A DNA stretch of 56,032 bases, taken from NCBI RefSeq assembly GCF_000003605.2, contig NW_003157228.1, positions 357,195 to 413,226 on the forward strand, read 5' to 3'. The stretch comes from Saccoglossus kowalevskii (taxonomy: Eukaryota; Hemichordata; Enteropneusta; Harrimaniidae). The notes beneath the pieces are model-generated. The model saw only the letters and a list, made by a program, of their open reading frames with translations, searched no databases and was not told the origin of the DNA. The translations under genes and the position numbers were made by a program. This document shows, in pieces, positions 19,154 through 48,950 of the stretch; position 1 is the first letter of the stretch; the number at the start of each line of letters is the position of its first letter.

Positions 19154-19873
19154 ATGAACACCAAGTATCTTCGCAGAGAAGGCGAACTGGAAGGCGAAAT
19201 AACATTGCCACCCCTTTCCTGTTCCAAATACGTCATAATTGGTAACCCTAGGAAACGAAGGCAGCGAAAAGAGAAAACTCCGATGTGGGAGCCGTACGGA
19301 GGCAAGCCCATCTTTATGCTTCCGAAAAATAAGATTGATAAATATACAATATATGGCGATAAATATTTCGAAAAACCGGACGAAGAGGACCCGGATATCG
19401 GACAAGGAAAGATTACTCATTACGAAGAAGGATACGCAGACGATACAGTAGAAATGAGTCTTTTGCCACGACTATCCGGAATCCATATCTCGTCAAAAGC
19501 GAAAACAAAACCACGGACGTCTTCGCGTCGGAAACGACGCAGGAGGAGAAAGGTTCGTGAGCGTTCGCCGTTTATGCGATTCACCGACAAACACTTGTTA
19601 AAATCCGGTCATTACTGTGACGTGCTGGGACCAAACTGCTGCGGGCTTTGCAACTCTAAAAGAGCGCGAAACTTAGCGGCGGCGAAGAGTTATGAAAGTT
19701 TGCCGGTGGTGGAGCTGACGGCAGCCAGTCTCGTTGCACCGACTCTAGCATCACAATTGATGAAAGCCGCCAAGTGGAAGAGATCGAGTCAAAGTAGGAA
19801 AAAGAACCGTGATGCTTTTAGGAAAGGAACAAGGGGACTGGAACGATTGCCGAAGATTGCTTCTCAGTATTAA
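19154..19873 (+). CDS. Lysine/arginine-rich CDVLG-motif protein, paralog A
   Basis: Single-exon ORF of 239 residues with an ATG in good context (A at -3). I do not recognise the family. Residues 19-36 read LPPLSCSKYVIIGNPRKR; paralog C has a near-identical block and paralog B a diverged one. Residues 72-102 are acidic, and residues 119-137 are strongly basic (RRKRRRRRK, a plausible nuclear localisation signal). A putative metal-binding block follows: C155-D-V-L-G-x3-C163-x2-C166, with an extra C162. The C-terminus is basic (RKKNRDAFRKGTRG). There is no signal peptide or membrane segment. AATAAA polyadenylation signals occur at about 20041 and beyond. A nuclear or nucleic-acid-associated role is an inference from charge and cysteines only. 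Conservation of both blocks in three separated loci argues that it is a real gene. Confidence 0.8.
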   Translation: MNTKYLRREGELEGEITLPPLSCSKYVIIGNPRKRRQRKEKTPMWEPYGGKPIFMLPKNKIDKYTIYGDKYFEKPDEEDPDIGQGKITHYEEGYADDTVEMSLLPRLSGIHISSKAKTKPRTSSRRKRRRRRKVRERSPFMRFTDKHLLKSGHYCDVLGPNCCGLCNSKRARNLAAAKSYESLPVVELTAASLVAPTLASQLMKAAKWKRSSQSRKKNRDAFRKGTRGLERLPKIASQY

Positions 19874-20734
19874 ATACTTGGTAAATTGGCAGTGAACGTC
19901 GTCTCGAGCTTGTGCATCAGTTTCTGACGCATGCAAATAACTTGGATATAGACATTGTCCATGACGATTATAACGTCCTTGTGTGTCAATGTTATTCAGA
20001 ACAAGATCTATTGCCGCACAGTGAGGAAATGGCCGAACAAATAAACCCTGGCTGACAAAGTAGCAGTGTGAAATCATGAACATGGAAACATTTTCATAAG
20101 GTTCCAAAATATACAGTATATAAACTTATTTCCATAATTACATGAAATATGAGAATCACCATTTATGGACATGCTGTTTGTGAATGCCAATGCAGGGGGC
20201 AAATAAACATTATTGACACCTTTTCACCACCAAACTTTATCTCCTAAATTATTCTGCACTTTTTTCTTATATTCTTCAAATTTTCTGGAAATAAATCCCA
20301 CTTTTAGAGCCAATAGGCCAATATATAGAAATATTCGACTATTTTTGTCCCATTCTTCTGAAGGAAAGTGCAGACTATAAACGGGACTATTTTGTGAACT
20401 TGTGGTGAGAAGAAGAAACTGGTGGTAAAAAGGTTAACGTTCAAGGGTTTATAACTTTTCAAAAGATTTTGTTTATCACAAGTTACATACAATTACCGCG
20501 ATTTACAAACTGTTGAATTGTTGATGGTATGTGCGTCATGGACAACAAGCATCATTAGATAAGATAAGTATGGATTACCTTTTTTGAGGTTTTTTTTTTA
20601 GTTCGATATTCAATGTTTACACTGTAATGGCTATGATTTAACGAAAACTGAGAATTGTTTTGTTCACACACAAAATTGCTGAAACTGTTAAGCGCATGCT
20701 TGTTGGTAGACAGGCGCAGTCGGGGCGATTAATT
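19874..20734. other. 3' flank of paralog A, no gene
   Basis: Contains several candidate polyadenylation signals (AATAAA near 20041, 20204 and 20287). No supportable ORF; the minus-strand ORFs here overlap the end of paralog A or are low-complexity. Confidence 0.5.
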
Positions 20735-21010
20735 AGGGTTTCGAGCCCTATGGGGCGAAACCCTTTTGTAATTGATATGTTTATTATTAGGCTTTCAAGT
20801 CCCTTCAGGCTTGAAAGCCTATTGTTTTTGTTATGTTTATTATTATTATTATTATTATTAGGCTTTCAAGTCCCTTCAGGCTTGAAAGCCTATTGTTTTT
20901 GTTATGTTTATTATTATTATTATTATTATTATTTAGGCTTTCAAGTCCCTTCAGGCTTGAAAGCCTATTGTTTTTGTTATGTTTATTATTATTATTATTA
21001 TTATTATTCT
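20735..21010. repeat. Hairpin plus (TTA)n array, four units
   Basis: Three units of about 71-75 bp each contain a perfect 11-bp-stem hairpin, AGGCTTTCAAG/CTTGAAAGCCT (20789-20820, 20860-20891, 20935-20966), followed by TATTGTTTTTGTTATGTT and a (TTA)n run that lengthens along the array. A diverged fourth unit at 20735-20764 forms the analogous hairpin AGGGTTTCG/CGAAACCCT. The long ORFs here are translations of the repeat (Tyr, Leu or Ile runs) and are not genes. Confidence 0.85.
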
Positions 21011-21298
21011 TCCGCCAACTTCAAACGACTTCTTCTCTGAAACGGCTGGACCGTTTTGCCTGAAAATTTGTATATACCTTCTACATGTCATGCCATTAAA
21101 AGTGACTGAAACAGATTTTCGATTAGTCACGTGGTTCGGCCGCTATCTTGGAACTCATTAAATATGCATGTCTCTTGTATCTCAAAAACTATTGCATGTA
21201 CAAACATGGAACTAACGGTATATTGAAGGCAACGGACAAGAGAATTGGCCAAAATATTCGTTGACCATATATGGTCATAGAACTCATTTAATATGCAT
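21011..21298. repeat. Repeat flank containing a 129-bp duplication, abutting the gap
   Basis: The array leads into CTTCCGCCAACTTCAAACG and then two copies of GAACTCATT(A/T)AATATGCAT, starting at 21151 and 21280, 129 bp apart. The second copy is cut by the assembly gap. This looks like the body of a dispersed or tandem repeat that the assembler could not traverse. Confidence 0.6.
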
Positions 21299-21348
21299 NN
21301 NNNNNNNNNNNNNNNNNNNNNNNNNNNNNNNNNNNNNNNNNNNNNNNN
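21299..21348. other. Assembly gap of 50 N
   Basis: Fifty consecutive N characters. The round size suggests an arbitrary gap length. The gap begins immediately after a repeated ATATGCAT word, so collapsed tandem repeats are the likely cause. Confidence 0.99.
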
Positions 21349-23481
21349 CATATTATAATGAGGTGGGGGCGTAAATACGTGCATAATGAGGTCAACATGG
21401 TAAAGGTCACACTGCAGACCCAATATGGCGGCACGTTGAAATTAGAGTTTGTCGTAGTCGTCGTTTCTAATTCATCACAATGTGTAAAAAAGTAACTCGT
21501 ACTAGTCGTAGAATTAAAAAAATCGGCTGCTACAATCAGCCGACGTCTTCTCGGTCAGAGGTCAGTTGAAGAGACGTTGTGATTGGCTTAGATGATTGTC
21601 AATTAGAACACTCATTAACATAATTACTCGTTGAAAAATCGACAGGTTCCTGCAGTGTCGATAGAGGGCCATGCAGAATAAACCAGTCAGGGTGATTTCG
21701 CAGTTACAGGGGATTTCGCGCTAACACATCCATTTCACGATTTTTTTTTATTTTAATTAAACTACAAAAACAAGTTAATCGCCCCGAATGCGCCAGTCTA
21801 GCTTGTTGGGTAAGTGGCACGTAATGTTTAAGCCAAAATGCACGTGCAAAAACAACGTTTGAGTTTACAAGAATTCATAACAAATTGTATGATGTCAGCC
21901 TGCAGCATCGAGCAAACATCCACTACAAATTCGTGTTACAGGAACTACCCGATGCCGTTACTCACTGTGGTGTTCTTGGCTGGTAGAATAACTTCAAAAT
22001 GTCTGTGCATCGTAGTGCGCGCATGCGCAAAATGACTCAGTAAGGTACTTTCTATATTAAGCCCAAAATACGAACATATCACTGTTTGTCATACGATTCT
22101 TAAAAATTAAAAATTATTTCGAGATACAAATAGATGATGGAACTTCTATTTCCGTTCTGTTGACGATTACTAAGTGTGTTTGTATTTTTTTGTGTGATGT
22201 CGCGTGGCCTTTGGCTTACCCTCGTGAGCTACGTATCATACAAGTCATGAGATTAAGTTCCGACATTGCATTTGACTTTCTATCATCGATAAGAAGAGAA
22301 ATTGTACTTTTGTCATTAATTTTACGACACTATATATTTGTTTCATTACTACATACCACGGTTACTAGAAGAACCGTTAGGAAACTCTCTCGGTTCTTTT
22401 GATAGGATGCCAGCCTGAGTGCGTGTCACGGTAAACATTTAAAACAAAGGGAATTAGCATACTGCCACCGTTGCGGCGATCGTAATTTGCGTAAAATTGC
22501 ATATTCGTTCGAAGACGATTCCATAGATTGAGGTTTTCTGCAATGTTTTTGTTCTTCCCGATTAATTCAGCATTGTCAGGATTTGGTATGAATATGAACA
22601 CAGAAATAAAAAAAATATAATTAGATGAAAACTGCACTATGAAACCATACAACTTCCTGTGATACTTCGGTCAGGAAAAAAAAGATGGTCGACATTGCTA
22701 TTTGGGAGAAAAATGTCTGCAAACTTCGAGAAAATGAAACTAACATTGTTTAAACTATCGTAGTTCTCTTATAAAGAACTCTCAGACGCCAATTCAATGC
22801 ACAAATTAGACTTTTGAAATGTTTCGAGATGCATTTTTGGATTACAAAATTTGCGTTGTACTAAAATATAAATCCTTCCGATATTTCAGCACTTTTCCCA
22901 AAACGCAGACAAAATGGCTGACTTCCGTCGCTAACCTCAAAAAACACGTTTTTTTCTAAAGTTACTACTGAAATTTGTTATGATTATCACAGATCCCAAT
23001 TAAAATACCCAGTCATTAACGTAGTAGCGAATTCTAACATTTTAGAACATTCGCAGACAGAGTTGTTGGGGTACAAAATGCCGATTCACAGATGGCAAAT
23101 ATGTCAACATGAACAAAATATTGATATTTTTTATATACAACATTCGCACAGAAGTCGGTGATGTTTCTACGTCGATCTTTCGGCCTAATGAGCTCTAGTT
23201 CTCAAATTTAGTGGACACACGTGGAAAACGAATGGAGATAGCAATATATGCGATGACGGCATAGTGGTTGAACACGCATCAAAGTGAAGTCAATGGATAA
23301 TTAGCATATCTAACAATAGAGTTTCCTAACTGTACTTCTAGTAACCACGTAGTACTACATACATACTAATTGTATACGAGTAGCAGCGAAGACAATAGAA
23401 TTCACTAGTCCGTGAAAACGCCGAATCTATTACTTCATTAAAAAGTGTGCGTCATTTACGTTGATTTCAAATACTTTTTGT
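21349..23481. other. Intergenic, no supportable gene
   Basis: Contains a full NRF1-type palindromic site (CGCGCATGCGCA, 22018-22029) on otherwise AT-rich DNA. ORFs at 21838-22035, 22160-22402 and 22377-22652 have no recognisable features. Confidence 0.55.
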
Positions 23482-23617
23482 GTTTACATTGGAGGGTCGA
23501 GCAGACACGAACAGTTTGCGCTGTCGTTTACATTGGAGGGTCGAGCAGACACGAACAGTTTGCGCTGTCGTTTACATTGGAGGGTCGAGCAGACACGAAC
23601 AGTTTGCGCTGTCGTTT
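23482..23617. repeat. 44-bp tandem repeat, three identical copies
   Basis: The unit starting GTTTACATTGGAGGGTCGAG and ending TTTGCGCTGTC is repeated at 23482, 23526 and 23570 without a visible difference, followed by a GTTT stub. Perfect identity implies a recent expansion. The short ORF at 23445-23642 is a translation of this repeat. Confidence 0.95.
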
Positions 23618-24197
23618 CAGATTTTATATCCTGCTAATTTAAGTATAAACGGTTAAACGGATGATAATTAAGGTTATTACGGTAATACCAAAAAGTGTGA
23701 AATAATGCAGTACGGAGCCACGCTATGCGTTGTTCGATATGATCAATGTATTCGTGCATATTTGACGGTATTCTCGTAATTACCTCATAATATGATGCTA
23801 TTTTCGACAGACGAGAAGTTCACAACGCTTGTTTGATCCACCCTTGAAAACACACGTGTTAGGAGCCATGTTTCTGCCTAATCTATAACACCGTGGTGTG
23901 AATACCTTGACCCGTTTACTATTGGTGCTACAATATTTACTGAGACATATATTTTTATAATAATCTGCATTGCTTTGTTTAAAAAAATACTATTCGAAAT
24001 AAATTGATTAAACATATACTGTTGTGTTTTTTGTGTTTTGTGTCATGCTGTGTTACACATATTATCGTGTATATTGGAATGAAGAGTCGTTTTGAAAATA
24101 ACAAATTACATGTAATGTCACTGTACTGTGTATTAGACAGACTATGAATTCACAAATAAATATACTAGTAATTAGACTTCGTATACTAGTATTTGAT
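23618..24197. other. Intergenic, nothing recognised
   Basis: AT-rich sequence lacking ORFs, repeats or sites I can name. Confidence 0.5.
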
Positions 24198-24400
24198 ATT
24201 TATTTATTTAACACTTTAGGAACAAAAAACACAATATACACACTATAGGCTTGAGCCATTTACAACACATTTTTCACTAAGATATATTTTGTATGTTTTC
24301 TTAAAAATGCCTAATGAGGCTGAATTTCTGATATGGAATGGCAAGTTATTCCATAGGGTTACCCTCTATACTGAAACGTCCTCTGATCTATGGATGTTTT
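24198..24400 (-). mobile_element. 3' end of a second LINE, minus strand
   Basis: Read on the minus strand, 24362-24243 encodes 39 residues beginning VTLWNNLPFHIRNSASLGIF, then KKTYKIYL, then a stop. This is the characteristic C-terminal block of CR1/L2/Jockey-like reverse transcriptases (usually W-N-x-L-P...S-x-x-x-F-K-K). Upstream, RTFQYRG lies in another frame, so a frameshift separates it from the VTLW block. An AAATAAATAAATA tail sits at 24210-24198. It is a 5'-truncated, inactive fragment. Confidence 0.8.
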
Positions 24401-27400
24401 CCATTTAGTAATGCATAAATTATTTTTAAAGGGGAACCGCTCAATCCCTTGGATTGCACCAAGTGCTCATGGGTAATTAACTCCGCCTCTGTCCACTGAG
24501 TAAATGAATGCTTATCTTTCCCCCTGTACCGCTAATTCCACAAAACAACAACTGATATACAATGTAAACATCCTAAGAACGGATTACAATTTGCTTGTTT
24601 AAATATAACATAGCAATTGAATTTCAAACAAATACAGAGCAGTCTTCATCATATGATGTGCCATGATTTGAAACATCGCGCGCTCGGTAATTTATACATC
24701 GTCGGAAAAATATGACGCGGAACTAATTTAAGTTGATGATGGCCAACAAGAAAAGGCGGCAGTCCACCGGATACACACGGCCAGAGTGTTGCTAAACGGT
24801 CGCGAAGAAAATACGCCGACTCAAGTCTATTTGCCTGTTTCCGTTGCGTCGGTCTATTGACGGTACTGGTCTCGTATACAGTAAACCTGAGAACGAAACT
24901 TCCTATGCACATTCTGTATACATACTACTCCTCCAGACTGCTAATATAACAAGTGTGAAAACACGAAGTCAATGACTTCGGTTTTCATATTTCCGTCACA
25001 AATCGGTAAACAGTTCTGTATTTACTATTGCCCTCAAATTTCCATATAATATTGACTAATTGGTAGAGGCGACAATGAAAAAGTTTACTGTATATTATAA
25101 GTACAGGTTATTACACGGAAATTCCCGTGATAAAATATCAAAATCATTAGTAAAGAAAAGTCGCCGCGACATCACGGGCTTATCTTGTAACCTGTTTACG
25201 ACACTCGTGTGGAAAATCAAAATCATGGGTGGTACCGGCTGTATCTCGTGTGAGATTTGAGTTCTTGTGATCTGGTGGGTGAACGTCGGGTTGACTTTAC
25301 AGTCAAAATCAAATGAGCGGTGAGGGGGAGAAGAGCGTTCTGTCAAAACAATTTTACGACCAATCTGCAGCGTTGTATTTATTATAAATAAGAATCCAAA
25401 AATAGAATATAAATACACACATACACTCGATTAAATTGTCTGGACATATATGCGACGCATGAACGAAAACGATCTCTTGTAAAAGATATGAATTGGAACT
25501 GCCTGTGACGTGTTGTCTAGGCGCCGTTTCGTCCTACAGTCAAATACAGAAACAAAAACTGATTCATTTTCTTATGCCAAGACCTGGTTGTTCATGCATT
25601 TCAAGCATGGCGTATTTACTTCTTGTACTCTGTGGTGTGTGCTGTGGAAACATCTGATTTCGCTGTTTTGAGCTGTCGAAGTATTTCGCGAAAAATAAAA
25701 CAAAGGGTAACACCATAGGAAGCAATCAGGCCAATGTCTTGTTAATATCCGAAACTTGGAACCTCTAACAGAACGGTTATTTCCTGCACGCCTACCAGTA
25801 TTACACAGCTACCATTTGCAGCTCATTGCAGTCTGACACTTATTCACTGTACCCCTTCCTGTTTCCAGACTGTCTAGAAAGTTATGCAAAAAGTTTCATC
25901 CCTTAGGAAACACAAGTCTTTGCCGTACGATCAAAAGAAAAATGTTCACATAGTAGTAACCAACATCGTTCTGGTGTTTCTAAAATAGCACTGCATTGCT
26001 TAGTAATAAATAATCACGGTAGCGCAATCCGACCATGCTACATTTCACAATTATTATTATTACTTGGTAGTGATTATTAATAAAGTACAAAAAGTAAAGT
26101 CGTTGAATTGTTCTGAAATGCAAGTAAATTTCAATTTAGTTTCATCGATTCCGGTCGCATGCAAATGCTCGACACCTTATAGGTCAAATCGCTAATCAGC
26201 CAGTCAAAATACTCGGTGATGCCAACGTGTTCAAATTACCAAAACGGAGGAGATTTGCCGATGTTCCAGCTCGATCTTTTACCTCTGGTTTTGATGGGAA
26301 GACGGCACGTTTTTTTTTTTTTTTGAAATCAAAACATTAGTTGTTTTCGGTGATAGATTGGCCATTTGAAGATTATTTTGACGATGATAACAGCTCGTTG
26401 TCGAATCGAAGCTTTACCCATTCATGCTAACCACAATAAACGTCGTACTCTTGAATAGGCGTCAATGACTACGGTAAAATTTGTAAGATTGTGGGTCAGG
26501 AGTGAGTGTTGTTTTGACTTGGGTATTGTGTTTTACATTCCAACATTATTTTCGCGCGTTTGGACTCACCGCGAAATTTAAACCACGCGAATGATTTCTA
26601 CTTCTACATTTAATTTATTGCAATGGATATCCGAAAGCCCGTAACCTAATGTTATTGACATTGTGTACTGTCTTACATCGTCATGTCCCAGTGTTACCGA
26701 TGGTTAGACCATGGAGGTGGTTAGACATAGACAAACTACGTAACGATAATGCTGTTTGTAAACCAACAAGCTTTGTAGATTGAATAAACATCTAGGGGAT
26801 TTTCATTTTCGTTTACTCAAACTGTGATTGACAGAAATTTTGCATACATTAGCCACCATTTTAAACTCGTGATTTTCACTAGTCGCGGCACGTTTCGACC
26901 GAAAATAACAACATGTATACATCAAAAGCTCAACCAGACGAGTGTAATCGCTAGCGTGCATATTCATGCCCCCGTGGATATGTATTTGGAACCACAGCCT
27001 GATCTCCAAACATCGTAAATGGCATATTTCACGGAGCTCCCGTCAAGATGGTAGCTGCTTGGTTCGGATTAGCATACTCATACGGCGGCCATCTTGACTC
27101 TTATTTATAGTATCGGTTATATTTATAGGAACGTGTACTACACTTATGGGTTTGGGAGATAGTACCGCCGCCTACGGCGACATTGTATAAACGATTCTCT
27201 ATTCTATTCTACAAATAGAGGGCGCACTCAGCTTGACTTGAGCTGCAATTTTCACTGTCAATATCTATAATCACAAAGCGGATATGAGTAAGATTTATTG
27301 CATTTAATATAAATTCCTCATAATTAATGGATAATGTACATGGAAGATAATCAAATCTTAAAAAAATCTCACACAGTTCATGGCACACACAATGCTGTTT

Positions 27401-28321
27401 GAGGTGCAGCTGGTGTGTCTGTCAAGTTGTTACGCCAAGAACCCACCCCTTCCCCTCCATCGGGGATACGTCAACATTCACAGTGGCGTTATCAATTTAA
27501 GACATGTGTAGCATGTTGGGGTAGAGGGCGAACCTTCACAATGATTTGAATGGGTCACAGTGCGAGTCCTTGTTGATCTATGTTCTCCAATGCAATATTG
27601 TAACCGTCACCCCCGCACTCCACCACCGTACTTACTTTAATTTCAGTTTGTAATCTTGTTTTATTTAATGATATATAGAAAAGATTACAATACTGATTAA
27701 ATTTTATTATATGAAAAGAAGTTTACAATAATTCTTTCTTGGCGATTGAGAAATCAGAATAATGCGTAAAGCCATTTATTACGACCGTCATTCAATCTAA
27801 CTATTGCAGTAATTTTAGTACATACTCTCAGGTTATACAATTTACGAACACGCCGGCTACGCAACGATTTCCACTGGTATTTCACATACTCACGTCCATC
27901 CAACTTGAATTTAGCGGTCACCACTAACTGAATCAGCGGAAAGGAGAAGTTGCGAAGTCCAGCGAATAGTTCACAGAAGTACTAGTAGTTATTTTTAAGT
28001 TTGTGTTCATAACTACAAGTTCGATACTAAGTTATTGGGGGCGACTATTGAAATGGTTGGGGTAATTCGCGTATAATTATTTTAGCTCAGTTTAATGAGG
28101 TCTCTTATTAAGTTCTGCATCCGAGACTCGAAGGATGACGTGGAGACATTTGAATAATTTAAACGGTACTTGATACGTAGATTTGATACAATACAAGAAC
28201 ACTTTCGCGCGTATGGGAGACGAAACATATTAAAATAAACAACCTCTGATGAGATACGTGGCGATTGTCTAAAGTGTGTCTAATTTATCGTATAATATCG
28301 TCAAATATCAGACAAATACGG
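24401..28321. other. Intergenic; small inverted repeat at 27.04-27.1 kb
   Basis: No supportable gene. A 57-bp inverted repeat, GTCAAGATGG...CCATCTTGAC (27042-27098), has arms carrying YY1-like AAGATGG cores. A CTCF-like TAGAGGGCGC is at 27216-27225. GCGAAATTTAAACCACGCGAA-type repeat words occur near 26570. An 18-T run lies at about 26311. Confidence 0.5.
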
Positions 28322-29161
28322 TTAATAACCAATGGTCGTTGGTGGCGATATTGTCTCCCACTCTACCGGTGTGTTTGATGGTGCGGGACTCTCGGGTATC
28401 TCCTGCTTGAACCTCACCTTAACCATCGACATTCTTCGTGGTGACTTCATCAGTCGCTGATGGATTTCGTTGTCTGTAACGCACTGTTCAGTTCTATATC
28501 TCTTTCTGGCAATACTACCGGCGTGAGAATGGTCGGACGGAGTCGGTGACGCCGCAGTGCTGGGCGTGGACGTCCTCCGAGTTTTGCCGATGCTGCCAGT
28601 CTGAGACAGCGTCGCATGCGCAGATGCTCGTAATTTCTTCTCTGCACACAAAGTTCGCGGATTGATTTCCCTTACAGGAGGGAATGTCCGGATGTAATCA
28701 AACTCATTCTCCAGTCGTTTCTTCTCTCGCATGCAATCTCGACAGGAATATAGTCCCAGGACCTCGCAAAATTCCTTCGCCGATTGGGCCCGGGAGAGAT
28801 ATGATATACGAGGGGTTAATCCGGTACGTCCGCATAGCTGACCCCTTCGCTGGAGCTGACACAGACAGCAATCACCTCGACGCCGAAACCCGCTCTGGAC
28901 CCTCTCACTCGGAAATTGAACCATTCGATTCCAGGCATTGTTGATAGTTGGTAATTTCTCCGGTATTGGGATCCCCTCGGGTCCGTATTGAACGTGACGT
29001 GATCGCTCAATATAATGCCTTAGAGAATGCCGCATTTGTTTTATCTCATACTTAATTTGTGGATCTGAGCGAGACTGCTTCGGTTCCCCAAGTTCCAGAA
29101 AACCAAACGGGTGGATCGGGTATTGCGGCGGCGGTTTCCATCGGGGCGTTGCTTGCGTCAT
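28322..29161 (-). CDS. CDVLG-motif protein, paralog B
   Basis: Single-exon ORF of 279 residues from an ATG with A at -3. The family is unrecognised. The N-terminal block HPFGFLELGEPK (residues 17-28) aligns with the YVIIGNPR and YLVIGNPK blocks of paralogs A and C. Residues 98-110 hold a Cys cluster (DCCLCQLQRRGQLC). The central block is C132-E-V-L-G-x3-C140-x2-C143 followed by REKKRLENEFDYI. A Ser/Thr/Pro-rich stretch at 185-215 looks disordered, and basic patches (ARKRYR, SPRRMSM) may be phosphorylation or nuclear-localisation sites. There is no signal peptide or membrane segment. It is the most diverged of the three, with a longer C-terminal tail. The Cys residues could form a small zinc site together with the 98-110 cluster, but this is an inference. 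Confidence 0.75.
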   Translation of the reverse strand: MTQATPRWKPPPQYPIHPFGFLELGEPKQSRSDPQIKYEIKQMRHSLRHYIERSRHVQYGPEGIPIPEKLPTINNAWNRMVQFPSERVQSGFRRRGDCCLCQLQRRGQLCGRTGLTPRISYLSRAQSAKEFCEVLGLYSCRDCMREKKRLENEFDYIRTFPPVREINPRTLCAEKKLRASAHATLSQTGSIGKTRRTSTPSTAASPTPSDHSHAGSIARKRYRTEQCVTDNEIHQRLMKSPRRMSMVKVRFKQEIPESPAPSNTPVEWETISPPTTIGY

Positions 29162-32100
29162 GTTGCCCTCAACGTTGCAGCAATTGGTAGTTAAATGCGT
29201 TCACTACGCATGCACACAGCGCATTTGATTCCAGTCAAAATCTGAAAGACGAAGAGAGGAAGTAACGTTACACATTTACAAAGAGGACCACCAATGATGC
29301 GCATCGCCCAACAACAAACAATTACATTTATTCGTATCAATTATATGTGGCGTTGTACAGATGACAAATCGACAAGAAATATTGGCTGGATTCTCCAATA
29401 TATTCTCGTATATACTGTACCATTGTGACGTATATTTTTTACATTATAAAATACAACTGGTATGCGAATGTCTTACAGAAAAAATGTCGCTCACTAATTA
29501 ACACTAGCTTCGCGATCTGCCATAATAACGTTGTCCAAATGTTACCTTTTAATAGGTACGCACACACTCTATTCTACCTCCAGGTGCAAAAATTCGGTTC
29601 TTGCAAACCTGTCACAACACACTCACACGCGCGCATAACGTAAACAAATATTTTGTGAAGAACGATAATCATACATAATAATAATAATTCTTTATGAAGA
29701 AAATATTTTATTTTACGTAACATGTGTCTTGTAAATGCACCTATTAAAAACAAATACCCCCAAATCACATCTTAAACAAAAATAATCCAATGTTTTATTA
29801 CGTTACTTGCGGTGTTCAGCATCATTAATACGTATATCTTTAATGTACAGGCGAAGTATCGTGAACGTAGTTCTAAAAAAATGTTTTTTTTTTATTCTTA
29901 TATGTAGACTGTCTTGTTTTCATACTGTGAAAATGCAAACATTCAATATTTCGAATGATTTACACAGTTTTAAAGGATGATTTGGCCAAAAAAGGCCTCG
30001 CCAAATTCTTCATATAATTTACTGTTCATTTTTTATTACAAAACAGTGATCGATCTGTTTATGTGAGAGTTACAACGAATATAAAAGCGTCTGGCAAATA
30101 TGCACTGGGTGAAAGGTTGTGCAAACTATCCAGTCTCTCATTACTGGTTTTACAGTTGAACACGAAAGTTCAAACCGAAATAGCTGCCAGGCCATAACTT
30201 TGTTTTCTGTGAAACTTTCAATTTATGTTGGTGTCTAAACGTAACGTCGGGGATTGTTGAAGCTCTGTTTTGTTATTTTGTTGCCATGTTGCCATGTGTC
30301 AAACCAAAGACAAATCTCTTCCTATTGTCGTTGATTTCACAATTGAAACATGGGATCATTGTTTGAGAACACAGTATACAAAACCCGGCATGTTCTATTC
30401 TTGAGAATATCACACCGTGACTACCTACAGCGCCCCCATACGCCAGACAGTTATGATAGCATCCACACAGTACACACGCCATCCTTGGAATAAAGTATTT
30501 GTCAAACCATTATTAGGAAAATAAGACTTTATCTAGTACGTTGACCTCTGACCTAACAAATATTTAAATACATATAAAACAAAAAAAGTTCATAAAGTTC
30601 GATAAATACAAACTTCGAAATCTAAATTATTTTGAACACTTTCATCATTTGAAGAGTACAATTCTACGTTTTTTGTAACAATCTTATTTATTCATTATGA
30701 ACTATAACACAGAATCAAATCATATTTACAGTTATTTTTATTACTTTTGACAATGTTTTGTTTTATTTCGAGTTACGAGATACTATTTATACAATTAACG
30801 ATAAGTAAAACCCTGAAATAACAAAAACAAAAAACAAAAAACAGTAAATAAAATATGAAAACTTAAAGAAATACCCTATACAAATAAACAGACAAATTTA
30901 GTGGTGCAATTGTTCGTAATTTATAGCAACACTAAATCTTACATTGAGGAAAACAGGGGTCGCAGTGAAGCCTAGTCAAAGTATGTCCATCTCTAATTAT
31001 AAACTAGCATCTCATTGTACCGTCCGTCCTAATTGAAATTTGTTTCAGTTAGTGTTGTACTGTGGTGCAAATAAGCTTCATGGTTAGACACTCACAAAAC
31101 TGTAAATATGATGTTGATTCGCTGCCGAGCCACTAGTGTTGGGTTTATGAGGAGTCATCGCAACTATCCACATGTTGTTGACCAGAGTCCACATATTTGT
31201 AACGTCAGGTAGGTGTGTTGTGTAAAATTTAAGGGAGCGCTCTTGAGATCGTCTAGTTTACGATGGAATAAAGATATTGTAGCAATAACAATAACGACAA
31301 TGGCGTGACAACGCTTCTTTTATTGGTCACTCGCATCAAAGGTCATTTGTTCTAAGTTTAAAGGTCACATTGGTTTTGTTAGACAACGTATTTTCCACTA
31401 ATCTTAGCATTAACAACGATCTGCGATAATCCCCATGTATTCAACATGACGGTTTTACACGTACCATAAACTGACTTGTTTAGTCGCGTATACTATCGTG
31501 GAGGTCGCACTGTATTCTGCAAGCCCGTTGTAATTAGTTGAACTGTTAGTTCTTTGGAAATACCTCAACGCCATTCTTTGATTGTCAATCATGATCGATT
31601 TTTAATTTGTACATTGCTGGGTGGTGAACTCGACGGAAGTCTTTTTTTGTGTACAATGTGTCAAATGTGACAATAATTCACCTTTTGCCGTACGGAATAT
31701 TTACTGCTCTTGCCCTATTATGATTAGATAATTGAAAATAATGCTAAGATGGCATGTTTTTATTTAATCTGGCCTTGAAGTTTAATTTCTATCATTTGTT
31801 CTATCCATTGTTGTACCTTTTGTTGACTATTTTGGCTCACTGTCTGACCCCCCCCCCCCCCCCGGATGATGAGGAATATAATACCATGTGATCTGTGTTG
31901 GATTGTTGAACACATATTAAATGATAATTTAACCCATAAAAATACCACAATAAATAACATGTTAACGTTCTGTTCTGTCATTTGATTGGTTAGCCATTCT
32001 TATCGACTGAAACAAAATAAAGTACTAGCAACCGTCATGGTTCAATATAATCAGGCAGGAATATTGAAATATACATTTCATATTTTGATGAATTAATTTG

Positions 32101-35935: not shown

Positions 35936-36951
35936 TCAAATGTTCAAACGTTGACATATGCTAGGTATACAATGTTTTGTATTTTGTCTTAAAAACCAAT
36001 GTCCCCATTGGGTGGCTCTTGTTACTTTGTTAGCGTTACCGATGATATAATTGTTTTGCAACACAATTGGAATGGTTTTGTTCTGCATGTCTTTACTACT
36101 GTACCATTGGCCACTGACGAACCTGTCCCTGTGTAGATAATCCAATCTAATTGGGTCTTCGTAATTTGCTATTTTGGATAACATAACTTGCTCAGCGAAA
36201 ATTTCGCTAATGTTCCATTGCGCATTGTCTTTGAACGTTTCAATACGATGTCCTAGTCGGCGACCTAATGTTTTCCATACTCGTTGTGCTGCGCTAGATG
36301 CGTTTAGATACAAAAATCCAGCACGGAATTCTGGTCCTCCATAATAGTTGACGACGCTGACGCGCATATCAGAAGGATGTTCCCACGTACTCAAAACAGG
36401 CACCGGGTTGCTGAACCAGACATCATCCGATTCGGTTATCAGTAAATTTATTCCATTTTCCAACAACCTACCAATCATTTTGACATGAAACAGTCCGAAT
36501 TGGTAGTAACTGACGCGCCCGTATGACATGTGATTCTCTGTACCGAACCGACGAAGTACGACGTTCAGACCAAGTACGCAGAGTTCAGAAACTGTACAAT
36601 TACAAAACCATACACTTTCTGTATAGAAGAACATAACTGGATTACACTTAGGTTCGCAGCAATAGTTGTATTTATTCTAGGTTGTTCCGATAACTGCACT
36701 GGTATTGCGGTTTTCATGATCGAATCCACAAAACGTGAAGTCTCTCCCCTGGTTACCAATGGAATATACTTGTCCGCTGCTGCGTTATCTGCACCAGATT
36801 CTCCGTCGCTAATAATAGACGTACCAGGTTCTATGTTCTCCCATCTAAATAAATAGTTTTTCCCGCTGTACGTAGCCAACATCAGGATGGCTATTGCACA
36901 CACACTTAAGCGACATCGTGTTATTATCTTTAACGTGTTTAGGGACGCCAT
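35936..36951 (-). pseudogene. Nucleotide-diphospho-sugar transferase-like gene, split by a frame change
   Basis: Two minus-strand frames overlap. The first (36951-36565, 128 residues) has an ATG in ideal context (AAAATGG) and an N-terminal hydrophobic anchor at about residues 14-30, giving a type II Golgi-like topology. The second (36634-35936) carries the catalytic-type region. It has SYGRVSYYQFGL, then LLITESDDVWFSNPVP (E/D-rich metal-binding DxD-like segment), GPEFRAGFLYLN, AEQVML, and N-glycosylation sequons at NAS, NIS and NKT. These match the layout of the nucleotide-diphospho-sugar transferase family (Pfam PF03407 type), which moves sugars from nucleotide sugars in the secretory pathway. 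The frames differ by one register between about 36565 and 36634, and the segment linking the anchor to the catalytic part looks shorter than usual. Possible causes are a real frameshift with internal deletion, an assembly error, or an unrecognised splice. I call it a probable pseudogene; function is unproven. Confidence 0.7.
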
Positions 36952-39520: not shown

Positions 39521-39521
39521 T

Positions 39522-40693: not shown

Positions 40694-40765
40694 GTCTCAG
40701 TTCTGCATACTTTATTAAGCTTTAAAATAATGGCGTTATTAAAATGAATTGTAATTTCGTCGTAT
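40694..40765. repeat. Dispersed repeat copy 2 (pair with 39522-39595)
   Basis: Direct repeat of the segment at 39522-39595 with roughly 85-90 percent identity judged by eye. The flanking sequences do not align, so each was probably inserted, or the intervening DNA has diverged. Confidence 0.75.
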
Positions 40766-42721
40766 AATTGCATTTTTATAATCTTTTGTTCACCAGACAT
40801 TCTCTACAAATAATTCTTGACAACATAAATGTATCTAATCTTGGCATGTGATTTCGGAGAATTTCTCTTTCTCTCAAAATATAAAAATAATCGCATATGT
40901 ACACATTTTAATCACATGTTTGGAACGAACCCGAGGTTATGCGTTAAAAAAAGCAAATGTGGGTAGCAACCACTAGACTGTTTATTTATAAGCATTTCTT
41001 TCCACACACTATTAATCTTTTACGGTAACGCATGTTGGGAAATTCAGACACATTGCAGTCTGTTCTATTGTGTCAATTATTCGATTTAGACTAATAATAA
41101 TACTAATCCATTATACATAGTATAGTATTAATATAATGCGCGTATCTGCATAGTTACTAAATTTAACAAATCATGCTCGTTTTTTCCTAGTGCACAGTAT
41201 ACATCTCGGGAAACATGGTATTTAGGGATAACTCACATTACCCCGGGGAATAGATGCATGCATTGACATTGCTAGTAAATATATGTTTTAATCATGGCAT
41301 GGGTAGTGCGAAACAGGTGCACGCCATCAGAAGTCACCACATTTTATAAAATGTGACGTGAAGTCAATGGTGGAATAATAAGAATGTCGACAGTTACGTT
41401 TAAACTGCTCCACTGAGTGTTTATATCTTTTTCAAGTCAGACGTAACCACTTCGCGTCTTTCAAGTGTTCCCTCTACATAATGATGCCGTTCCGTTTCAA
41501 CGCCAATCGATACAAATAATCGAAATAATGCACTGTGCAACGTTTTCTACTCGTCATTATTCTTTTGATTGGTTACTATGGCAATAGTCACAAGAGAAGT
41601 AATCTAGTAAAAGACAAATCCGTTTTCAAAAATACATTTCTTCCGTTCGTGATACAATTTACGAAACATTTATTGAAATCGTTTCTTTTCCATCAAAACC
41701 TTAATAGATTCATGCTGTATGTGAACTCATTTGTGAAACATGTAAAAAATGGTAAAAAATTAAGGTTTAAGAAAGCATATATTGTTACAGATTTATCTTG
41801 CGCTCATTATCAGTTATTACTGTAAAAAGCGCAATACTATAGTATATGAATTATCATTTTAATTATTATTCTTGAAAATACCGAATAATGAGCTGTATTT
41901 TAAGAGAATTTTAGTTAGAAAAATATTATGGAAACTCTGGGAAGTTCACTCGATTGTACCTGTCAGAGAATATTTCATATACATATGATACATATATCAC
42001 TTTTTTCAATATATTTGTAAGCGCTGTAGAAATTGTTTCACTGTTATTTATGCTGGGCATTATTCTATCGGTCGCACTAAACCTAACAACTAATACGTTA
42101 GTTATGGCAATATTAAGTTTTTGTGTCTCAGTTTTCGAGGTATGAGTGTATTGCATATGCCCGACATAACAGGTATTTTTACATTATAATACGTATGGAA
42201 TCGACATTTTCAGAAACTTTGTCATAAATCTCAGGGATTGACTTCAAATAACGGAAAATGAATTGTGTTAATAATATTAATAACGTGAAAGACATCGCTT
42301 GTTTTTTTTTCTCGTTTACTCTCTTATTGTGTCGGTATATTGTGAAATGAAATGTGATGAGGTTTTAATTTTCATACGAGAATATCATTTTTGTCAACAG
42401 CAGTAACATTACAGCGGCGATCGATATTTGACATATTTTGTCGCAACTAATTAGAAATCAACAATGCAGACGACAATGAATAAAATGTAAAATGTGCACG
42501 ACAGGCTTAAATTGGACTAGATTTGCATATATTGTATATACACAGTCATGAATTCAAAGCTAGAAGAGGGAAGTATTACATCAGTCTGGGATGGAATTCA
42601 ACATGTGACACTCAGCAAATAACGTATTCTCGTATTTTTTCATTGTATTCATCACACTGTGAAAGAAGGACACAAAACACTTGACATCAATATCAATATT
42701 ATTCCAATCAATATCATTCAT
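40766..42721. other. Intergenic, no supportable gene
   Basis: AT-rich sequence with a perfect 18-bp palindrome, CACATTTTATAAAATGTG, at 41338-41355. The ORF at 41535-41825 opens with GTG and is not called. Confidence 0.5.
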
Positions 42722-43552
42722 GAATATAAAAAATGCTACGTGTGAAGTACATATGTTTAATATATGGAATATGAGCACGGTATATAGCATGTGTACACTG
42801 TCTATGGCATATGCGTACCATATGGAATGTGTAGGCTGTACATGGGCATTTATGTTTTGTATGAGGGCATGTGCACTTCGCATATAGGCGTATGTGCGCC
42901 GTATATGAGCATGTATTCACCATATATGAAAATATGTGCATCGTATATGAGCATGTGTGCAGCATATATGAGAATGTGTGCATCGTATATGGCATGTGTG
43001 CATCGTATATGGGCATTTATGTTCCGTATGTGGGCATGTGTACTACGCATATGGGCGTATATGGACATGTGAGCACAGTATGTGGTCATGTGTGCATTGT
43101 ATAAGAGCATGGGTACATCGTATATCAGAATGTGCGCATCGTATATGGCATGTGTGCATCGTATATGGGCATTTATGTTCCATATGTGGGCATGTGTACT
43201 CCGCATATGGGCGTATGTGTACTCCGCATATGGGCGTTTGTGCACCGTATATGAGCATATGTGAATCGTATATTTACATGTGTGCACCATATATGAGAAT
43301 GTGTGCATCGTTTATAAGCATGTGTGTATCGTATATGGGCATTCATAATCCGTATGTGAGCATGTGTACTCCGCAGTTGGGCGTATATGCGTCTTATATG
43401 AGTATGTGAGCACCGTATGTGGGCATGTGTGCATCGTATATGGACATTTATGTTCCGTATGTGGGCATGCGTACTCCGCATATGAGCGTATGAGCACCGT
43501 ATATGGGCATGTGTGCATCGTATATGAGCGTGTATGCACTATATATGAGAAT
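42722..43552. repeat. Degenerate part of the ATG-rich satellite (about 21-bp monomers)
   Basis: About 40 diverged monomers of 20-21 bp of the form GTGTGCATCGTATATGGGCAT. Monomer types seen in the homogeneous array downstream appear here in irregular order, with extra types such as GTGTACTCCGCATATGGGCGT. The many ORFs on both strands are repeat translations (rich in His, Cys, Tyr and Met) and not genes. Confidence 0.9.
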
Positions 43553-44240
43553 GTGTGCATTGTGTATAGCATGTGTGCATCGTATATGGACATTTATGTT
43601 CCGTATATGGGCATGTGTGCATCATATATGAGAATGTGTGCATTGTGTATGGCATGTGTGCATCGTATATGGACATTTATGTTCCGTATATGGGCATGTG
43701 TGCATCATATATGAGAATGTGTGCATTGTGTATGGCATGTGTGCATCGTATATGGTCATTTATGTTCCGTATATGGGCATGTGTGCATCATATATGAGAA
43801 TGTGTGCATTGTGTATGGCATGTGTGCATCGTATATGGACATTTATGTTCCGTATATGGGCATGTGTGCATCATATATGAGAATGTGTGCATTGTGTATG
43901 GCATGTGTGCATCGTATATGGACATTTATGTTCCGTATATGGGCATGTGTGCATCATATATGAGAATGTGTGCATTGTGTATGGCATGTGTGCATCGTAT
44001 ATGGACATTTATGTTCCGTATATGGGCATGTGTGCATCATATATGAGAATGTGTGCATTGTGTATGGCATGTGTGCATCGTATATGGACATTTATGTTCC
44101 GTATATGGGCATGTGTGCATCATATATGAGAATGTGTGCATTGTGTATGGCATGTGTGCATCGTATATGGACATTTATGTTCCGTATATGGGCATGTGTG
44201 CATCATATATGAGAATGTGTGCATTGTGTATGGCATGTCT
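43553..44240. repeat. Homogeneous 83-bp higher-order satellite, 8-9 copies
   Basis: The 83-bp unit starts at 43553, 43636, 43719, 43802, 43885, 43968, 44051, 44134 and 44217. It is a tetramer of four related monomers of 20, 21, 21 and 21 bp: GTGTGCATTGTGTATGGCAT, then GTGTGCATC..GGACAT, TTATGTTCC..GGGCAT and GTGTGCATC..GAGAAT types. Copies are nearly identical; differences include ATAGC in the first unit and TGGTCAT in one unit. Because 83 is not a multiple of three, the reading frame rotates each copy and the same 80-residue ORF reappears every 83 bp. This is an array artefact, not coding. Confidence 0.97.
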
Positions 44241-44350
44241 GCATCGTATATGGGCATGTGTGCCTCGTATATGGGCATCAATGTTCCGTATGTGGGCATG
44301 TGCTCTACGAATATGAGCGTATGTGCACCGTACATGAACATGTGTGCTCT
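44241..44350. repeat. Degenerate right edge of the satellite
   Basis: Four or five further monomers with substitutions (for example ATCAATGTTCCGTATGTGGGC) decay into unique sequence after about 44350. Confidence 0.85.
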
Positions 44351-46644
44351 GTGAGTAGTATGTGTATTTCGTTGCCGATAATTCATGGTTCTATTTTAAC
44401 AACAATAAACGCATCTCCATAGAAGAAATTTGTTTTATCTCTGTGATCACGGTTCATGCGGTTACTAAAAAAGAATGTAACCGTGCTGTGATGACATGTC
44501 TCAAAATGGCGAACATCTATACAAATAAAGTGAATGCTGGTTTTTAATAAAGGGGCCATGACGACCCTTAATATATTGCAAGTATTAAAATATTAATAAA
44601 ACACATAAAAGGAGAAATAACAGAAATATATCAAACTTTCATTTCTTGCAACCACACACCTATAACATAAATACTAACATAAAAATGGCAATATAACCTC
44701 TATAGAGTCCGTAATATATGACTGCTGCTTGGCAGAAATGTGCGGATTGTTTAGTTAATTCGTACCCGTAATACAATTCCTTGCGACTAACAGTTGTCCT
44801 ACTGCGCATGTGCAAGCTGAGTTTATTGCTCAAATCGATGTCTTACACTGTATGTATTTTTATAAGAGTTCGTCTCCGGTATGAGCAAGGGCATCCATAT
44901 ACTCTGGACGAGGGTGTCCCGGGGCTGGGCAAAGGGCTTTTGGTCTGACAAAAGAAATCATGGTCTTTCCAATATAGCCACACCTCAGAACGTATATCGG
45001 GACGGCGAATTCAATGAATATAATTTCAATTTGTCGACATAAAAATCATTGATTGATAAAATAAGGTTATTGTGCTCCTTTCTTTTCTTTTCCGTATCTG
45101 ACGTTATACTTTCACGACAATTTACCCGAGCACGATAATACGAGGCATGACGCGCTACCATGACAACGTACAATTGATCATAGCTACCACCGTCGAGAAA
45201 TTAAGCTTATCTGTATTGTACATCCAGTTTTTGAATAATTCCAACAGTTTGCCGATCCGAGAGCTTGTACTCAAGTCGCGGGAAATCATATCGTGTTAGG
45301 AAGGTCAGTGGATAGCGGCGTCGTTAAAGTGTTCGACATAAAGCACTGCATGTCGTAAGAATAGTTACCACGGACCTATAAAACACGAGTAGGTGTTGTG
45401 GTTATGAGTACCTCATTAAGATCAAGCCTCAAACGATGGGCAATTGATATTATGCATGTACTTTAACGATAGTTCGTTAATTCAATTAATTAAATTGGCA
45501 GACTTTTTAAATCTTCAGACAAGAATTCACACGAAAATTCATTTATGTGCTTCATAACTCATACAGTAGTTTTACTATTAACAAAATACACGTTTTTGCG
45601 TGTGTGTATTGCTAGCACATCGCAGGTTATATTTTGCATTTTCCAGTTGTCACAACGTTTCTCTAAAACTTCTACCTGCATGGTAAGATTAAAAATGTGT
45701 GAGACTAAAGTACACCAACATTCGATTCATTGAAAATATATATTTTTTAATGACCACAATTTCTTTCAATCCAAATCTGCTGTTTTACGATGGCACGTTT
45801 ATCGTTTTATTCACAATTCAATTAGTTTTTATAAATTAAGCAACGAATCACGATAAATTCACTGAAGGACGTTTAACTTGTTTGCGTTTGAATTACCAAG
45901 GTAATATTCTCGCGTCGATAGGTCACGTGACTGTTAAATAAACACTAAAACACGCAATTAAACACGGCATCAGTGACTCGCGACTCAGAACAGTATTATC
46001 GATTGTTTTGCACTTATTAAGCAACGTGTAGACATGACGCTAACATGATGGATAGTCGTTTACAGCAACAATGACTGTGGTTATTTGAGCTCACTGATGA
46101 CGTCATTTATTTATAAATACTGATAAGAGCTTCTCGCGAGCACAGAGATGATCAATGCGCACTTATCGTGAAGCACGTTTCTCGTATTTAAACTGCCACT
46201 CAACAGAATTGAAAAAAAAACTACAGAATTATTGATCAAAAGGCCCCAGTATGGATTCCAATTATCAACGTCCGAAATTAAAATGGCTATCTCAATGACA
46301 CAGAACTACAGAAGCTGATTACTTTTCTTTGTAATAAGCAGATTATTTATGTCCACACGCTCAAAATCCAGAACAAATTAAATACTGTATAACGACTAAT
46401 TTTCACTGGGTTTAAATCTCGCTGATTTACCATTTCAGGCATATTCAGTTGGTTTTAAATTCACAGTTTTATCATTTAGACAATGTGTTCTATGCTAAAT
46501 TTTAGCGCATTTTCCAGTCAACGAAATAAGCAAAATTAAAACCTAGTGAATAATTAACCTTTTACAGTAAGCACAAATGTCTCCGTATCTCAAACATTCA
46601 TTAATATAACGGTAACGATCGTAATTTGCCTGTCCCAATCTCAG
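44351..46644. other. Intergenic; candidate CRE/TATA promoter inside
   Basis: No supportable gene. At about 46098-46121 a palindromic CRE is followed closely by a TATA-like box. Elsewhere only short AT-rich ORFs are present. Confidence 0.5.
46098..46146 (+). promoter_or_regulatory. Possible promoter: palindromic CRE plus TATA
   Basis: ATGACGTCAT, a full palindromic cAMP-response/ATF site, is followed within about 5 bp by TTATTTATAAATACTG, a TATA-like element. CTCGCGAG, half of a TCTCGCGAGA-type core promoter motif, follows near 46134. No recognisable plus-strand ORF lies downstream, so the transcript, if any, is unknown. Confidence 0.25.
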
Positions 46645-46902
46645 CTAAATAGATGAGAAAACTACGACCACTATCACCCTGGTTACTCCCGTTACGACAG
46701 TACCCATAATACACCAGGCAGTATGTAGTAAGTCAGCTCGAAAATCCTTGGAAACAGTTTCCTGTACAACGGCATTTGATATTTTTGCATTTAGGTGGAA
46801 TCCCAGCGTGGAGTAAAACGGTTTACGAAAACATACACATAACGTGTCATTAATAAGAGCTTGAATCCTTCGTTTAGTAAATTGTTTGGTTTCTATATTC
46901 AT
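46645..46902 (-). CDS. Hypothetical small protein with one C-terminal membrane helix
   Basis: ORF of 85 residues from a true ATG with a purine at -3. Composition looks more protein-like than most short ORFs here: a polar N-terminus (MNIETKQFTKRRIQAL), a Cys-containing middle, and a hydrophobic segment of about 22 residues near the C-terminus (CIMGTVVTGVTRVIVVVVF). I recognise no family and there is no supporting paralog or splice evidence, so it may be a chance ORF. Confidence 0.2.
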   Translation of the reverse strand: MNIETKQFTKRRIQALINDTLCVCFRKPFYSTLGFHLNAKISNAVVQETVSKDFRADLLHTAWCIMGTVVTGVTRVIVVVVFSSI

Positions 46903-48023
46903 TGCTTTTGTCCAGTGTTCCAGTGTTTGCCGCTAGTCACACACATATCGAAGAAAGCGATGATTATTACAATCTTAAAGAATTAAATCATTGCGTCTCG
47001 AACAGATTATCCCTCCCGAATTGCAATTTCCTTAATCCGCAGTTCCATTCATATGCTTAGTGAAAAATAAATCTTTTGGTTTCTAGATTGGAACGTGCAT
47101 TCACTGCGGTCATTGCTTTTGTATTCACATCCATATTGCGACCCTTTGAGCTATTAAATCCCCTAGGTTACGTATTAAATGTGACTGGGTGGATTTGTTT
47201 AATTCCCTGTTAAGCACCTGTATTTGTACTCAGGGGCTTGCACCATGTACGACTTCGAATCTTAAAAACTATTATCCGGCAATAAATTGTTCAGTAATTC
47301 GCGCTATTATTGTCACTAATCCAGCCAATGGCAGACTCAGTCGGTTGTCATGGTGACGCCACAGAAATCCATGACTGCTGTCTCACAATCACATTGGTTA
47401 TAAATCCATGTGTGGAAATAAGGTGGGGGTCAACAATGGGTTGTCTTGCAATACTTTAGCACAACAACATAGACGTTCTGCTTCACTGTTTAGTAAAACA
47501 CGAATAGTACATGGACCGAATGACCGCAATAATGACAACTGGTATTGTCTGTGTGCTGTGCAGTGTCGCTAAATAATCTTAATGTTATCCCAACTGTAGG
47601 CCTTAACCCGTTGTAGACGCAAACCACCTGCTATGTACAGTCATTTGCCGGGCATGGAAAACCCTTTACTATACTGACTTGCTCCGACAAATATTTACAT
47701 TCAATCAGCTGACATCAGGTGGCAAAACAAAATAATCACAATTGGGCGAGAAAGCACCGACCTCCTCGACCAAATGGTGATATTTTTTTACAATTGTAGG
47801 TCAAATTAATGAGCTGCGAAAAAGACGTGTATCGCACGGCGAAAGAATGTTACACGGGCACAGCTTTTCATAAAGCAAACATAATTATTTGTTAACAATG
47901 TCGCACACCGTGAAAAGCAAAATATAATTAAAAAACCGTATTTATAGACGAATAAATGTTGCCTTTTCCAAAGGAGTGTCGAAATACTGATTAACAGTGA
48001 GTTTTACTAGCCACCTTCGCTGT
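46903..48023. other. Intergenic 3' of paralog C, nothing recognised
   Basis: AT-rich DNA without supportable ORFs. No clear polyadenylation signal for paralog C could be chosen with confidence. Confidence 0.5.
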
Positions 48024-48950
48024 CTAGCCAGCTGTGCTACCTTTTCCGAGCATGCCGGTCAGACTGGGGAGTTTTGAACACATACACGTCGTCGATATTT
48101 CTTTGCTCTTTTTTCGTGATCGCCTTTTATTGTAAGCACCTTTCTGCATGGCTCGTGATAGATTGGTCGATGTGACATTCTTCGGCGAGGAGACTCGTAA
48201 TATTGGCAGCATAAGTCTTTCGTATTTCTTACGATTGTGATAGGCAAGGCAGCAAGAACAGTATTTATGTCCCAGTACATCGCAGAATTCCCTGGCCTCC
48301 CCTTCGCACACGGGGGAGCCTTTGCATATCTTCTTGTGGTCGGGGCTCTGGCACGTGGATTTGTGTCGGTGTTTCTCGTTACCACTACCGTTGCCATCAG
48401 CTTCTTGGACAGTTTTATTACTAGTAACCTCATTTTCTTCGACTTCTATTTGTTTTTCCTCGATCGGAGGCAGTTTGAACGACACTCGAGTTTTTTCCCG
48501 CTTACTCGTCTTCCGCGGTAAAGGCAGTTTTCGACCCATCGTGTCAGTCCGTGTCTTTTCCCGGTTACAGATCTCGATTAATTTTTTCTCTTGTAAAATT
48601 TCCACATTCTTTGGCTTAGCGTCCTCGTGGATAATCGGTGGCATGATTTTCATATCTTCGTCGTCGTATCGGCGGTCGGAGTAGAGAGTATCCCTGTCAA
48701 ACTCATTACTATCAGACCCATTCATCGAACGAAATACAATCCGTTTACGCCTGCTTCGTGCGTGCGTTCGAGGAACCTTCCACACAACCTGTTGTCGTCT
48801 GCTGCGCTTGCGTGCAACTCGCATCTTCGGGTTGCCAATGACGAGGTATTTAGAACAGGGAATCATGGGTAGTTTCGTCATTGGCACGTCAATTCCGTGA
48901 TCAACAATGCTGCGATATGGCTCCGAAACTCCGGCACTTTTCACTTCCAT
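48024..48950 (-). CDS. Lysine/arginine-rich CDVLG-motif protein, paralog C
   Basis: The open frame reaches 49022, but its first codon there is TTG. The first ATG at 48950 gives 308 residues and follows a pyrimidine-rich tract ending in CAG (AG at 48987-48986), which looks like a 3' splice site of a 5'-UTR intron. The family is unrecognised. The N-terminal block LPMIPCSKYLVIGNPK matches paralog A closely. It is followed by basic runs (RKRSRRQQ, RSRRKRIV), an acidic region (DRRYDDEDMK) and a Glu-rich linker. The Cys-containing C-terminal region has spaced upstream cysteines (TCQSPDHKKIC, PVC), then C-D-V-L-G-H-K-Y-C-S-C-C. In numbering from 49022 the core is C247-x7-C255-x2-C258. The tail is basic (KRRSRKKSKE) with a CMC. 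No membrane segment exists from the chosen start. It is probably nuclear from charge, and possibly zinc-binding; function unknown. Confidence 0.8.
   Translation of the reverse strand: MEVKSAGVSEPYRSIVDHGIDVPMTKLPMIPCSKYLVIGNPKMRVARKRSRRQQVVWKVPRTHARSRRKRIVFRSMNGSDSNEFDRDTLYSDRRYDDEDMKIMPPIIHEDAKPKNVEILQEKKLIEICNREKTRTDTMGRKLPLPRKTSKREKTRVSFKLPPIEEKQIEVEENEVTSNKTVQEADGNGSGNEKHRHKSTCQSPDHKKICKGSPVCEGEAREFCDVLGHKYCSCCLAYHNRKKYERLMLPILRVSSPKNVTSTNLSRAMQKGAYNKRRSRKKSKEISTTCMCSKLPSLTGMLGKGSTAG

Follow-up and report, generated by a model that had tools for sequence, protein, structure and literature searches.

Three dispersed open reading frames (ORFs) in a 56,032-nucleotide stretch of the Saccoglossus kowalevskii genome encode basic proteins that have a short cysteine motif in common. 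This locus raises the question of whether the three genes belong to one protein family and which part of the proteins defines it. The stretch, here called the window, is C4657:357195-413226 in a 572-Mb assembly of 4830 contigs. The genes are P1 (19154..19873, plus strand), P2 (28322..29161, minus strand) and P3 (48024..48950, minus strand). An earlier note had described them as single-exon paralogs of an unrecognised family with two conserved blocks, one near each end of the protein. The C-terminal block is common to all three proteins and to a fourth, P4, which is encoded on another contig. The N-terminal block is homologous in two of the four members.

The C-terminal cysteine domain

The pattern C-[DE]-V-L-G-x3-C-x2-C is found in P1 (19616-19651), P2 (28733-28768) and P3 (48249-48284). 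A looser pattern, C-x-[VIL]-[LIM]-G-x3-C-x2-C, has three matches in the six-frame translation of the window, one in each gene. The motif occurs in none of 100000 shuffles of each of the four proteins, although this control is post hoc because the pattern was derived from these sequences. The conserved C-terminal unit extends past the motif and is approximately 55 residues long. It covers residues 152-205 of P1 (19607..19768, plus strand), residues 128-179 of P2 (28625..28780, minus strand) and residues 219-273 of P3 (48132..48296, minus strand). Over 52 residues, the P1 and P4 domains are identical at 21 positions, some of which belong to SLVAP-x-LA, a stretch that follows the cysteines. The positions that are invariant in all four members are C15, V17, L18, G19, C23, C26, R32 and P44 in the alignment numbering, which correspond to the motif plus one arginine and one proline.

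Profiles of the C domain from which one member is left out place the held-out member first of 2001 in all four cases. The E-values are 1.3e-9 for P1, 2e-4 for P2, 1.3e-4 for P3 and 3.9e-10 for P4, while the best shuffles reach 0.21 to 0.48. The value for P2 is partly post hoc, since the motif led the earlier note to this gene; P4 was found independently of that note. In pairwise Smith-Waterman comparisons (1000 shuffles in each direction), P1 and P3 have z-scores of 15.0 and 15.7. P2 and P3 have z-scores of 5.1 and 5.7, and their score is reached by 1 and 0 of the 1000 shuffles. The C-terminal block described earlier is therefore present in all three genes, as confirmed by both the pattern scan and the leave-one-out profiles. 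Judged from these comparisons, the sharing of the C-terminal domain is homology rather than chance, because each held-out member is placed first of 2001. As the part common to all four proteins, the C domain is, on the same evidence, what defines the family.

The converse explanation, in which unrelated ORFs share the motif by chance, is extremely improbable. It draws on P2, which was chosen by its motif, has little in common with the other members outside the C domain and gives no significant match to P1 when the two are compared alone. The leave-one-out separation in four of four cases contradicts it for P1, P3 and P4, and less strongly for P2. The fourth member also came from a genome search and not from the motif.

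Extent of the family in the genome

When the genome is searched with P1, one match besides P1 itself is recovered, at C2120:143276-143440 (E 1.2e-4). The ORF at this position encodes P4, which is 187 amino acids long from the first ATG. In the reverse search, P4 with one extra codon in front recovers P1 (E 6.1e-5), and the 55-residue domain of P4 alone recovers P1 with an E-value of 1.4e-5. For the P3 domain, P1 is the sole other match, and it is weak (E 0.93). A third match to the P4 query (C4323, E 6) has a stop inside and was set aside. The reciprocal matches of P1 and P4 support the paralogy proposed in the earlier note and enlarge the family by a gene on another contig.

The first pass of the genome searches scored 1 to 4 candidates each, and four members is a lower bound. 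Within 100 kb of the window on each side, the sequence that can be read contains no further paralog, which is a weak absence because 135,502 of the 256,032 bases (window included) are N. Around P4 on C2120, there is no motif match in L027, where 6,611 of 10,000 bases are N, or in L028. Taken together, the sequences point to a small, old and divergent paralog family that comprises four or more genes in this genome.

The N-terminal block

The N-terminal block of P1 (LPPLSCSKYVIIGNPR onward) spans residues 18-82 (19205..19399, plus strand) and is homologous to residues 27-102 of P3 (48645..48872, minus strand). The two align in BLASTP with 31.6% identity over 79 columns (E 9e-6). P2 contains FLELGEPK (29078..29101, minus strand), which fits the eight-letter pattern proposed earlier for this block. 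The pattern also arises in 4 of 200000 shuffles of P2 (a post hoc control). In a search with a profile of the P1 and P3 blocks, P2 ranks 362nd and P4 ranks 113th of 2001, and the GNP block is not found in P4. Homology of the P2 segment with the P1 and P3 block is thus unsupported by the profile, and the block was rejected as a family-wide feature on this ranking.

The two-block definition of the family consequently does not hold, as the N block is homologous in P1 and P3 only, two of the four members. The narrower claim that all three window genes carry the block stands for P1 and P3; in P2 the pattern is present and its homology is unsupported. The description of the rest of each protein as largely unalignable is too strong for P1 and P3, which align over the N block.

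Selection on the protein sequence

In the C domain of P1 and P4, identity at codon positions 1, 2 and 3 is 0.58, 0.62 and 0.23. In the N block of P1 and P3, the corresponding values are 0.45, 0.73 and 0.39. Over the four blocks that were aligned, identity ranges from 0.45 to 0.73 at positions 1 and 2 and is close to random at position 3 (0.23 to 0.39). Identical residues are encoded by different codons at 12 of 21, 12 of 21, 16 of 25 and 10 of 21 positions in the four blocks, and the paired sequences have the same base at 5 of 10, 1 of 5, 0 of 5 and 3 of 7 four-fold sites. These identities come from amino-acid alignments and are not an estimate of the ratio of nonsynonymous to synonymous substitution rates (dN/dS). 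Read in this way, they support an old divergence under protein-level constraint, in agreement with the purifying selection on a shared core that had been suggested earlier.

Predicted structure, cysteines and charge

AlphaFold models were made for the whole of P1 with three sequences and for the P1 C domain with an alignment of four. In the whole-P1 model, the mean predicted local distance difference test score (pLDDT) is 50, the predicted template modelling score (pTM) is 0.19 and 149 of 239 residues are below 50. Confidence is highest at residues 161-180, with ten-residue means of 75 and 78; this segment holds the end of the motif with C-x2-C, together with the helix that comes after it. In the C-domain model, the mean pLDDT is 58 and the pTM is 0.27, with means of 57, 70 and 77 across residues 150-179 of P1. 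The helices in this model are at residues 152-158 (GHYCDVL), 164-181 and 191-205. The models suggest a helical unit inside a mostly disordered protein; the fold is not established. The metal binding that the earlier note proposed for the core may apply: a zinc-binding domain generally has four conserved Cys/His ligands, and in the four members three cysteines, but no fourth ligand, are invariant.

All four proteins are strongly basic, with isoelectric points of 9.85 to 10.1 and net charges of +16 to +29. The values are 10.1 and +28 for P1, 10.0 and +21 for P2, and 9.85 and +29 for P3. This charge fits binding to DNA, RNA or tubulin equally well, as far as composition can indicate. The earlier note had suggested a nuclear site from the basic runs, and an explanation that follows it is that they are basic proteins of sperm nuclei or chromatin. 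The net charge and the runs of arginine and lysine are in line with such a role. Composition alone is non-specific, however, and conservation in all four members falls on the cysteine domain instead of the basic runs. This explanation is rated as distinctly unlikely.

Comparison with known families

None of P1 to P4 has a match above the curated cut-off in Pfam, and none of P1 to P3 has one in NCBIfam. Among PDB sequences, no match is better than E 0.4. The Pfam matches were listed up to E 10, though the HMMER filters drop most matches above 0.1. The family is unrecognised, as the earlier note had it, in the sense that it is absent from the Pfam, NCBIfam and PDB-sequence libraries.

Several sub-threshold matches were rejected. 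The Conotoxin family (PF02950) scores 14.6 bits for P1 (E 0.067), below its cut-off of 25.1, and was read as a chance match in a basic, cysteine-containing stretch. Ras_bdg_2 (Pfam), Ssp4 (NCBIfam), 4g06, Prp18 and ThiC are also chance matches, each under the cut-off or with an E-value of 0.8 or worse. A viral or prokaryote gene family was rejected as well: the patterns have 168 and 10 matches in viral contigs and 45 in prokaryote contigs, and tblastn confirmed none of them. Occurrences of the letters CDVLG in the literature (insect peptides, gamma-delta T cells, a semiconductor) have no bearing on these genes.

The motif spacing raises the alternative that the C domain is a degenerate treble-clef or RH/FYVE-type zinc finger, with C-x7-C-x2-C as its second half, and that the proteins are zinc-dependent adaptors. 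The best PDB profile match is the RH domain of Rubicon (PDB 6wcw, RYCEYLGKYFCQCC), which has the identical C-x7-C-x2-C spacing and the LG. FYVE and B-box fingers, among the treble-clef and cross-brace zinc fingers, show the same half-site spacing, and literature on B-box and iron-sulfur proteins contains the pattern too. Further ligands could be added by CCLC at residues 98-101 of P2 and by cysteines 200, 209 and 215 of P3, which are upstream of the motif. However, the Rubicon match has an E-value of 0.42 over 17 residues, which is at chance level. For zinc binding, RH domains use a much larger set of cysteines and histidines, and these are absent from the family. Three cysteines are invariant among the four members and there is no invariant fourth ligand. 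In P1, cysteine is absent between residue 23 and the motif, and P4 has Cys78 only. Both lack the second ligand pair of the treble-clef and cross-brace fingers, to which Pfam gives no match. The region is also helical and without strands in the AlphaFold models, at low confidence. Membership of the Rubicon RH domain, which Pfam does not list at E up to 10, was rejected, and the match is kept as a lead for a zinc half-site. A zinc finger of this type is an unlikely explanation of the domain.

A second alternative is that these are structural proteins of sperm or cilia, in which basic, flexible chains lie along microtubules by means of short anchors (GNP[KR] and LP-x-[IL]), like THEG/SPMAP2. LP-x-[IL] is found in P1, P3 and P4, and GNP[KR] is found in P1 and P3. 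These short leucine-proline-lysine motifs within a basic chain may resemble THEG repeats. Unlike those repeats, the motifs are present in a single copy, and the C domain that defines the family is different. At E up to 10, Pfam gives neither THEG repeats nor any other ciliary repeat family, within the filter limit stated above. Many axonemal proteins are present in the PDB, and the family has no PDB-sequence match better than the value given above. A ciliary or sperm structural role is an unlikely explanation.

Proposed explanation

The explanation that is tentatively preferred is that P1 to P4 are an old, divergent family of basic proteins in which the C domain docks onto one conserved partner and the arms bind a polyanion. 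As modelled, the C domain would begin with a short helix that bears C-[DE]-V-L-G; after a turn would come a longer helix with C-x2-C at its start, then an [LF]-P segment and one more helix. The three cysteines would hold a helical hairpin together, either by cysteine pairing or through a metal whose fourth ligand is not invariant. Through this domain, every protein of the family would dock on the same conserved partner. The lysine- and arginine-rich arms, which are probably disordered, would attach to a polyanion, for example DNA, RNA or the acidic tails of tubulin, and their divergence would specialise the paralogs. A more specific proposal, possible but doubtful, is that C-[DE]-V-L-G-x3-C-x2-C marks a domain not described before: a helical hairpin with three cysteines, held by a metal or a cysteine pair, which is preserved while the arms of the basic proteins evolve very fast. 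Its role would be that of a new docking module, acting on chromatin, RNA or cilia.

Several observations weigh against the preferred explanation. In the genome searches, whole P2 (E up to 10) and whole P3 (E up to 1) match only themselves. The pairwise comparison of P1 and P2 has a z-score of approximately 0.5, and 275 and 290 of 1000 shuffles reach its score. Half of the P1/P4 four-fold sites (5 of 10) are the same, and the codon comparison is biased towards positions 1 and 2 by the way in which the blocks were aligned. Both structural models are of low confidence and are built from few sequences. C-D-V-L-G itself is at a pLDDT of only 56 to 57 (mean of 56 for residues 151-160), and the two models differ in where they put the helix that follows the LP segment, at residues 198-231 for whole P1 versus 191-205 for the C domain.

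If orthologs prove the domain to be widespread, an unnamed family gains a defined core that is open to protein production, structure solution and knockout, and the corrected motif definition makes a sensitive profile possible. If the domain is restricted to one lineage, the genes are another taxon-restricted orphan family, which is a common kind.

Gene structure

The three ORFs are intact at the coordinates given in the earlier note and encode 239 (P1), 279 (P2) and 308 (P3, counted from the ATG) amino acids. In 60 random 56-kb sequences that match the window in dinucleotide frequencies, the longest ATG-initiated ORF has a mean of 134 and a maximum of 195 amino acids, and each of the three ORFs exceeds this maximum. 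In-frame stops are found 18 and 21 bases 5' of the ATG in P1, and 42 and 45 bases 5' of the ATG in P2. A candidate splice acceptor for P2 (CTTCCTCTCTTCGTCTTTCAG; 29242..29262, minus strand) is 80 bases upstream of its start. It suggests an intron in the 5' untranslated region (UTR), because the in-frame stops separate it from the ATG. The candidate acceptor of P3 is a long T tract ending TTTTTCAG (48986..49011, minus strand), 35 bases upstream of the ATG. The P3 frame is open across this acceptor, and the first in-frame stop is 81 bases upstream. The acceptor could end a 5'UTR intron or, because the frame runs open across it, an intron that follows an unseen upstream coding exon. The single-exon description therefore fits P1 and P2 and is less secure for P3.

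Genes with a single coding exon and introns in the UTR are termed uiSEGs (PMC8302217). P1 and P2 resemble such genes in apparently having one coding exon, and the P2 acceptor is upstream of in-frame stops. They differ in that the introns are read from sequence rather than from transcripts, and P3 may have its own upstream coding exon.

Neighbouring ORFs and repeats

Further long ORFs occur near the family members. Two are near P1 to P3, at L005:3380-4834 and L007:3532-5346, and encode 469 and 596 amino acids from the ATG. One is near P4, at L028:2701-6144 (minus strand), with 1148 amino acids from stop to stop. None of the three matches the family or one another (BLASTP, E 1), and the two that were scanned against Pfam have no match at the cut-off.

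Approximately 0.9 kb upstream of P1, the region 18066-18220 contains a 139-bp miniature inverted-repeat transposable element (18074-18212). Its 15-bp terminal inverted repeats (CAGTGGCGGATCCAG) are perfect, and an 8-bp target-site duplication (TGAGAAAT) flanks it on both sides; from this duplication, the element is presumably hAT-like. A large minisatellite at 42865-44365 has nested periods of 21, 83 and 249 bases. Several frames are open through parts of it, including an ATG-initiated ORF of 152 amino acids on the minus strand (42850-43308).

Two further ORFs, each with a recognisable domain, are on the minus strand. A nucleotide-diphospho-sugar transferase (PF03407) is encoded at 35936-36951, with the match inside the ORF at 35936-36634. 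The overlapping upstream ORF (36565-36951) has no Pfam match and may be the first exon of the transferase or a broken frame. An ORF at 9792-10220 encodes a RING finger (zf-RING_UBOX, E 8.9e-9) and is read as a TRIM-like start.

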